Shown piece after piece: positions 14,409 to 15,320 of a DNA stretch of 64,000 nucleotides (position 1 is the stretch's first letter; each line of letters begins with the position of its first letter). The notes beneath the pieces were generated by a model. That model was not told where the DNA came from. It ran no database searches and was given only the letters and a program-made list of their open reading frames with translations. The position numbers were made by a program, and so were the translations under genes. The stretch spans positions 372,001 to 436,000 of the forward strand of contig JBCAML010000020.1 of NCBI GenBank assembly GCA_038503075.1, given 5' to 3'. This stretch comes from Gyromitra esculenta. Taxonomy: Eukaryota > Ascomycota > Pezizomycetes > Pezizales > Discinaceae.

Positions 14409-14908
14409 CTCATGTCGCCAGATTTATAATGCTGGATGACTAAATTCTGACTAAGGTCGGAATTATCATGCCATTTAAGAGCGGCAGCAACTTCAGCACA
14501 CTTTAGACAATATACCTTAATTATTATAATTTTCTATATCCTGTGGCAATTAAAGAATCGAGCTTCCTGTGGGGATTTCACCAGTGTTTGGGACCCATTT
14601 TCGCGTTCAGTATCCATAGTCAGACTTCAGTCATCTGGCGATATGAGTAGCCAACTTCAATCGTGCTCTAACCTTTGCAGCCTCGGAGTCGGGAAGATGC
14701 ACGAAATCCCAGTACAAAGATAACATCAATCATGGCTAAGGTAGGCACAGCAGCAAGAGGTTTCGCTTTTACAATAAAAGTCTGGAGCAGATTTAAGATA
14801 CAGATAAAACTAGGAAACTGGTCGTGCAGCAGGCCAACGACCAGCAGCATTGATCAACCCCATTTTCTTCACTCCCTCGCCAACGGCCAGAAGAATAATG
14901 AAAAGGTT
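14409..14908. other. Intergenic, downstream of the U2 RNA gene
   Basis: This stretch follows the 3' end of the minus-strand U2 gene. It contains no reading frame with recognisable content and no repeat that I can pair. A short frame shared with the U2 gene (14675-15010 plus) is not coding. Confidence 0.5.
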
Positions 14909-15252
14909 CGCGTCAACCGGAGGCAGTGCAATACCGGTGACACAGTGGAACCGAGGACGTGCAAGCACGGAGCCCCAGCCCCTAGTTATAAAAATAAGTA
15001 TAATCAATAAATGGTTCCATAGAACCGTTTCAGAGATTAACTATTGATAAATTAGCAACTACAAGTGGAGAGAGAATAAGGGGAAAACATACACTGAAAA
15101 GAACAGATACTACACTTGATCTAAGCCTGTATTTTTGAAGGATTGTTAGTAAATAGATAAGAAGGGTAATACTGAAGAGGAAAGTGGTGATGGGAAAGGA
15201 AGGCAGTTGTTGCTGCGTTTAGGGGTTGACTTACCAAAAGGCAAAGAGAGCT
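14909..15252 (-). ncRNA. U2: U2 spliceosomal snRNA gene containing two mRNA-type introns
   Basis: Read on the minus strand there are three exons: 15252-15235 (AGCTCTCTTTGCCTTTTG), 15126-15093 (begins GCTTAGATCAAGTGTAGTAT) and 15040 to about 14909. Joined, they give a canonical U2 RNA of about 184 bases. It has stem I around GCCTTTTGGC, the branch-site-pairing GTAGTA, CAGTTTAATCTCTGAAACG, stem IIb GGTTC-TATG-GAACC, Sm site TTATTTTTATA, a stem III region, and stem-loop IV ACCGG-TATTGCACTGCC-TCCGGT. Intron 1 is 108 bases (GTAAGT..TTACTAAC..ATACAG). Intron 2 is 52 bases (GTATGT..TTGCTAAT..CAATAG). Without removing them, neither stem I nor the sequence after CAGT matches U2. Function: U2 pairs with the intron branch site in the nuclear spliceosome. 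The 5' end is placed by alignment to known fungal U2 and lies about 40 bases below a TATA box; the 3' end is placed at the base of stem IV. Two mismatches weaken lower stem I. Confidence 0.93.
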
Positions 15253-15284: not shown

Positions 15285-15292
15285 TATATATA
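15285..15292 (-). promoter_or_regulatory. TATA box of the U2 snRNA gene
   Basis: TATATATA on the minus strand begins 40 bases before the inferred U2 5' end, followed by a pyrimidine-rich leader (CCCCTCTTCCTCC...). Position and composition fit an RNA polymerase II snRNA promoter. Confidence 0.65.
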
Positions 15293-15320
15293 CTCTCAGG
15301 CTGCTTGGCGCCGAGGAAAT

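Follow-up and report, generated by a model that had tools for sequence, protein, structure and literature searches.

Whether a U2 snRNA gene that is cut into three pieces by two mRNA-type introns could serve as a working gene is the question raised by this locus of Gyromitra esculenta, which lies on the minus strand of the window (the whole stretch of DNA analysed, 64,000 nt). The gene structure is real and well supported; its RNA and the splicing of that RNA are predicted. The preferred reading, given a probability of roughly 85%, is that the window gene would be a working U2 gene, one of four dispersed copies in the genome, whose precursor would be spliced twice to yield a normal U2. A protein search with an RMT2-like frame points to Pezizomycetes: among the best 120 of 1,723 hits, the first named ones belong to Choiromyces, Rhizina, three Tuber and Geopyxis (57-63% identity), all Pezizomycete genera, with unnamed hits reaching 83%; a second search gave no named organism.

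The original prediction of a U2 gene in three pieces was borne out base for base at 15252-14908, and both introns (15234-15127 and 15092-15041) lie exactly where it had placed them. Three exons of 18, 34 and 133 nt are separated by introns of 108 and 52 nt (Table 1). The Rfam U2 model (RF00004), run on the unspliced sequence as had been suggested with the prediction, matched 15168-14902 with 109.5 bits against a cut-off of 46, and U2 was the only Rfam family at or above its own cut-off within the 64 kb. The first positions of the model were aligned to intron letters in this match, because intron 1 displaces exon 1. The outer exon limits were set by comparison and mark predicted RNA ends.

Table 1. 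Features of the U2 locus, numbered from the first letter of the window
Feature	Position	Strand	Description
Upstream promoter-like element GGCGCCAAG	15304..15312	-	60 nt before exon 1
TATA box TATATATA	15285..15292	-	GTATATA
U2 exon 1	15235..15252	-	5' arm and loop of stem I; no difference from this segment of paralogues L001 and L002
Intron 1, 108 nt	15127..15234	-	GTAAGT...TACTAAC (15151-15145)...ACAG; in none of the other three U2 genes
U2 exon 2, 34 nt	15093..15126	-	Based on Rfam alignment, paralogue identity and coordinates
U6-pairing region and branch-site-pairing GTAGTA (15113-15108)	in U2 exon 2	-	
Intron 2, 52 nt	15041..15092	-	GTATGT...GCTAAT (15056-15051)...ATAG; interrupts the stem IIa loop, as an intron does in each of the four U2 genes
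U2 exon 3	14908..15040	-	Based on Rfam alignment (to 14902), alignment and pair counts
Stem IIa 3' arm, stem IIb, Sm site ATTTTTA (14995-14989), stems III and IV	in U2 exon 3	-	
Downstream hairpin element	14872..14895	-	Core CTGGCCGTTGGCGAGGG at 14890-14874; also found after U1, U3 and U4 genes

The ends of intron 1 could be fixed by comparison, since positions 1-103 of the spliced RNA, which comprise exons 1 and 2 and 51 nt from the start of exon 3, do not differ from those of two other U2 genes of the genome, on contigs C8 and C1, where stem I is contiguous; a one-base ambiguity remains from a G common to both sides. The ends of intron 2 were fixed by the U2 consensus across stem IIa. Both introns follow the major-class (GT-AG) consensus, reading GTRWGT at the donor, CTRAY at the branch site and YAG at the acceptor. 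From the branch A to the end of the intron there are 19 nt in intron 1 and 11 nt in intron 2, distances that fall within the 6-36 nt given for fungal introns in a U3 gene survey (PMC5832005). When both strands of the window were searched with fixed ends for GTRNGT, CTRAY near the end and YAG, this signature was found at 2 of 127,784 positions for a length of 108 nt and at 2 of 127,896 positions for 52 nt, the introns themselves counted.

All five U1 candidates of this genome (38.5-67.3 bits, each below the Rfam cut-off of 69.5) carry ATACTTACCT at the 5' end, with which, in our reading, the intron 1 donor and the G preceding it would pair over 7 bases. Likewise, TACTAAC of intron 1 is read as complementary to the GTAGTA of U2. 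An ascomycete U2 gene with two mRNA-type introns, as originally proposed, is supported at the DNA level.

Four U2 genes above the Rfam cut-off were identified in the assembly of 47.1 Mb (23 contigs), on contigs C8, C1, C20 (the window copy) and C17, with scores of 105.2-128.1 bits and with all 192 positions of the model matched in every one. The prediction had held that a second, uninterrupted U2 gene receiving all RNA reads would make the window gene a non-functional copy; three further genes do exist, but none of them is uninterrupted, and all carry intron 2. The intron in the stem IIa loop measures 70 nt (C8), 85 nt (C1), 52 nt (window) and 80 nt (C17), while the stem I intron is confined to the window copy (1/4). 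The spliced RNAs would be 185, 185, 185 and 186 nt long and are 89-96% identical; their alignment contains a single one-base gap, with 8 to 21 differences between copies over 185 sites.

The intron 2 site is CAGT^TTAAT in the C8, C1 and window copies and CAG^TTTAAT, one base earlier, in C17 (L004), and both variants join to CAGTTTAAT. This shift of L004 relative to L001-L003 could come from intron sliding, which is possible, or from a separate gain. Identity between copies falls to 52-62% in intron 2 and to 52-77% in the 110 nt upstream. In BLAST comparisons of 3.3 kb loci, similarity reached no farther than about 70-85 nt on the upstream side of the RNA and 33-47 nt on the downstream side, so the four genes look like old dispersed copies instead of recent segmental duplicates. 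A joined stem IIa free of an intron was absent from the assembly (pattern search, up to 3 mismatches), the sole match (L033, 1561-1473, minus strand) not being U2 and being explained by a tRNA-Phe (gaa) gene.

The distribution of intron 1 could be explained by gain or by loss. Gain by the window copy after the copies had diverged is the likely course on grounds of parsimony, because one gain suffices, whereas loss needs two or three precise events that spare intron 2. The four informative sites of the spliced alignment conflict with one another, two joining C8 to the window copy, one C1 and one C17. In the other history, intron 1 would be ancestral and lost from the other three copies, with the gene otherwise working as in the preferred reading. 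Mixtures of intron-bearing and intronless copies are known for U3 genes of some fungi (PMC5832005) and give this history some precedent; however, besides the number of exact losses, a loss by reverse transcription of mature U2 should have taken intron 2 as well, yet an intron is present there in 4/4 copies. The U2 genes of other eukaryotes also argue against it. Exact U2 patterns gave no match in a viral contig collection; in a genome contig collection the longer pattern gave none and the shorter one hit four stretches, namely three U2 genes (L027, L028 and one common to L029 and L030) and a minus-strand fragment of L029, which departs from the U2 sequence before the end of stem IIa and was left out of the count of three. 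These three genes, none from a close relative, have no intron at either site; they lie in bacterial bins, probably as contamination. Taken with the four paralogues, ancestral presence followed by loss is considered unlikely.

A further alternative is that the window copy is silent or dying, with intron 1 as an inactivating insertion and the U2 pool supplied by the other three genes. The flanks speak against this. In all four U2 genes GGCGCCAAG precedes exon 1 by 60-61 nt, the start of GTATATA precedes it by 41 nt, and the core of the downstream hairpin starts 17-18 nt past the exon end, so the window copy keeps its promoter motifs, TATA box and hairpin at a spacing that is equal within one base in 4/4 genes. 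In addition, donor, branch site and acceptor are near-ideal and sit at the exact ends of the insert, which would be unexpected of an arbitrary insertion.

The RNA structure was examined with 41 pairs in a four-row alignment of the spliced copies. All 41 are intact in the C8 and window copies, and 40 of 41 in C1 and C17; GTAGTA and stems I, IIa, IIb, III and IV are present in the window copy after splicing in silico. Compared with its nearest copy, C8, the window copy differs at 8 of 185 sites, four of them in stem III, where each change is one-sided (e.g. C-G to U-G) and a standard pair is kept. No compensatory change was found in the window copy within the 41-pair structure of the four copies, and the 3 pairs changed on both sides appear to owe their changes to C1 and C17. 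The five observed values were reached by 18, 72, 72, 279 and 59 of 500 shuffles, including 18 for the paired percentage, 72 for pairs changed on both sides, 279 for further pair types and 59 for the covariation score, a weak control since the alignment has four rows only.

The Sm site is ATTTTTA in the window copy and ATTTTTG in the other three, a change that might weaken Sm binding. This departure, the want of compensatory changes of its own and the absence of intron 1 from the other three copies are what a silent copy would predict, and the first two would count against full function of the window copy. Decay of promoter, structure or 3' element, as in a pseudogene, was otherwise not observed, with the Sm-site change as the exception. 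Considering the unchanged spacing, the intact pairs and the complete splice signals, a silent copy is judged improbable, and less probable than loss of intron 1.

The last alternative, that intron 1 belongs to a group of mobile or introner-like elements spread through the genome, would account for a precise, copy-specific insertion but is very unlikely, since a DNA search of the whole genome with the 108 nt (simple repeats and very common words skipped) returned only intron 1 itself, its first 24 and last 30 bases each occurred once in the genome with up to 3 mismatches allowed, the many near-identical intron copies typical of introners were not seen, and in 9/9 local alignments of intron 1, against seven other U2 or U3 introns and two gene flanks, at least 38 of 200 shuffles scored as high.

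For a working window gene, the following course is proposed. Transcription would probably be carried out by RNA polymerase II from the promoter type common to other snRNA genes, and the precursor would be capped. The major spliceosome would then remove both introns and leave a U2 of about 185 nt, the 3' end would be matured near the downstream hairpin, and the mature U2 would be assembled with Sm proteins. Since the stem IIa intron occurs in 4/4 copies, its site appears to be old; together with the failure to find an intron-free stem IIa, this implies that all U2 would come from the very spliceosome that U2 serves, so that the whole supply would depend on U2 already present.

In the unspliced RNA the start of intron 1 can pair with exon 1 (TTTGCC-TTTT-GGTAAG) at -5.1 kcal/mol, versus -7.7 kcal/mol for the true stem I. 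This hairpin is regarded as a lead only, because a consensus donor meeting exon 1 explains much of it. It leads to a speculative idea, judged improbable: all U2 would pass through a closed loop, with U2 splicing its own precursor, and splicing of the copy that separately gained the stem I intron could sense how much U1 and U2 is available and adjust U2 output. Sensing is proposed because the hairpin of exon 1 and the intron 1 donor copies stem I, and because TACTAAC complements the GTAGTA of the adjoining exon.

A few systems resemble this locus. Rhodotorula hasegawae is a basidiomycete yeast with introns in its U1 and U5 genes. For its U2 snRNA gene, Takahashi and colleagues reportedly described an mRNA-type intron in 1993. 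The likeness is a spliceosomal intron inside a fungal U2 snRNA gene; judged by its title, that case has one intron in a basidiomycete, whereas the ascomycete studied here has four U2 genes, each with the stem IIa intron and one of them with another as well. Introns in the U6 snRNA of fission yeast and other fungi are said to have been described by Tani and Ohshima in 1989 and by Canzler and colleagues in 2016. They too are mRNA-type introns that interrupt a gene for a spliceosomal RNA, and splicing thereby produces one of its own RNA components, but both U6 copies of the present genome are uninterrupted. Spliceosomal introns in ascomycete ribosomal DNA were reportedly found by Bhattacharya and colleagues in 2000; these also lie in non-coding RNA genes, but in ribosomal and not spliceosomal RNA.

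Fungal U3 snoRNA genes are described in PMC5832005 as multi-copy and interrupted by GT-AG introns, with copies that differ in their intron state, a few two-intron genes and intron sliding. These features are shared with U2 here, intron sliding as a possible case, but U3 acts on ribosomal RNA and not in splicing. The present genome has a U3 intron as well: four U3 genes were found, three (L024-L026) with an intron after CTATAG and one (L023) with none.

No report of a U2 intron in an ascomycete was found among the titles and abstract openings listed from PubMed Central, and an exact-phrase search gave no paper, which is weak evidence of absence, as most older journals fall outside the coverage. 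Introns of mRNA type in snRNA genes were already known, one of them reportedly in the U2 of a basidiomycete yeast, and what would be new is the interruption of the whole U2 family together with a second, paralogue-specific intron. If RNA data confirm the structure, the U2 supply would depend wholly on pre-existing spliceosomes, a self-referential step. U6 in fission yeast and the snRNAs of some basidiomycete yeasts offer comparable steps. In addition, the four paralogues form a natural experiment on intron birth: they share the RNA and the promoter type, and intron 1 is in one of them and missing from three, so a single genome would allow a new intron's source, age and cost to be measured.

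The downstream hairpin was compared across the genome. A hairpin resembling CCCTGGCCGCTGGCGAGGG was observed downstream of L012-L015 (U1), L001, L002, L004 and the window copy (U2), L025 and L026 (U3) and L008-L010 (U4). The alignment covered 13 of 18 U1-U5 and U3 genes or candidates (4/5 U1, 4/4 U2, 2/4 U3, 3/4 U4, 0/1 U5). U1 L016, U3 L023 and L024, U4 L011 and U5 L007, in which inspection by eye showed no clear motif, were left out, as were the two U6 genes. In these 13 genes all 65 cells were paired, 9 of them changed on both sides, and covariation was present, counts that are likely flattered because the rows were chosen by resemblance. No shuffle of 500 equalled the observed covariation score, changed cells or paired percentage, but as many pairs changed on both sides were obtained in 87 shuffles, and as many further pair types in 33; slid versions were at most 64.4% paired. 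The hairpin may serve fungal snRNA genes as a 3'-end or termination signal. In fission yeast, Pac1 is found associated with the genes of U1, U2, U4 and U5, directly downstream of which hairpins with 23-32 nt stems have been predicted (PMC8421224). The hairpin of the present genome is shorter, so the parallel extends to position and possible role only.

The pattern ATCAAGTGTAGTATCTG, with at most one mismatch, occurs at five places in the genome. Four are the U2 genes described above, and the fifth (L022) was rejected as a U2 copy, with nothing U2-like in the surrounding 240 nt.

Introns were absent from the two U6, one U5 and four U4 genes and the five U1 candidates, whose matches span the whole models at about normal length, so that among the RNAs examined in this genome (U1-U6) only U2 and U3 are interrupted. 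Upstream, GGCGCCAAG is found in gene orientation in three of the five U1 candidates too. It stands about 20 nt before a TATATA box in the window copy (15312-15285) and in L001, L002, L004, L012, L013 and L015, as a shared snRNA promoter, and occurs reversed (CTTGGCGCC) in U1 L014 and U4 L010.
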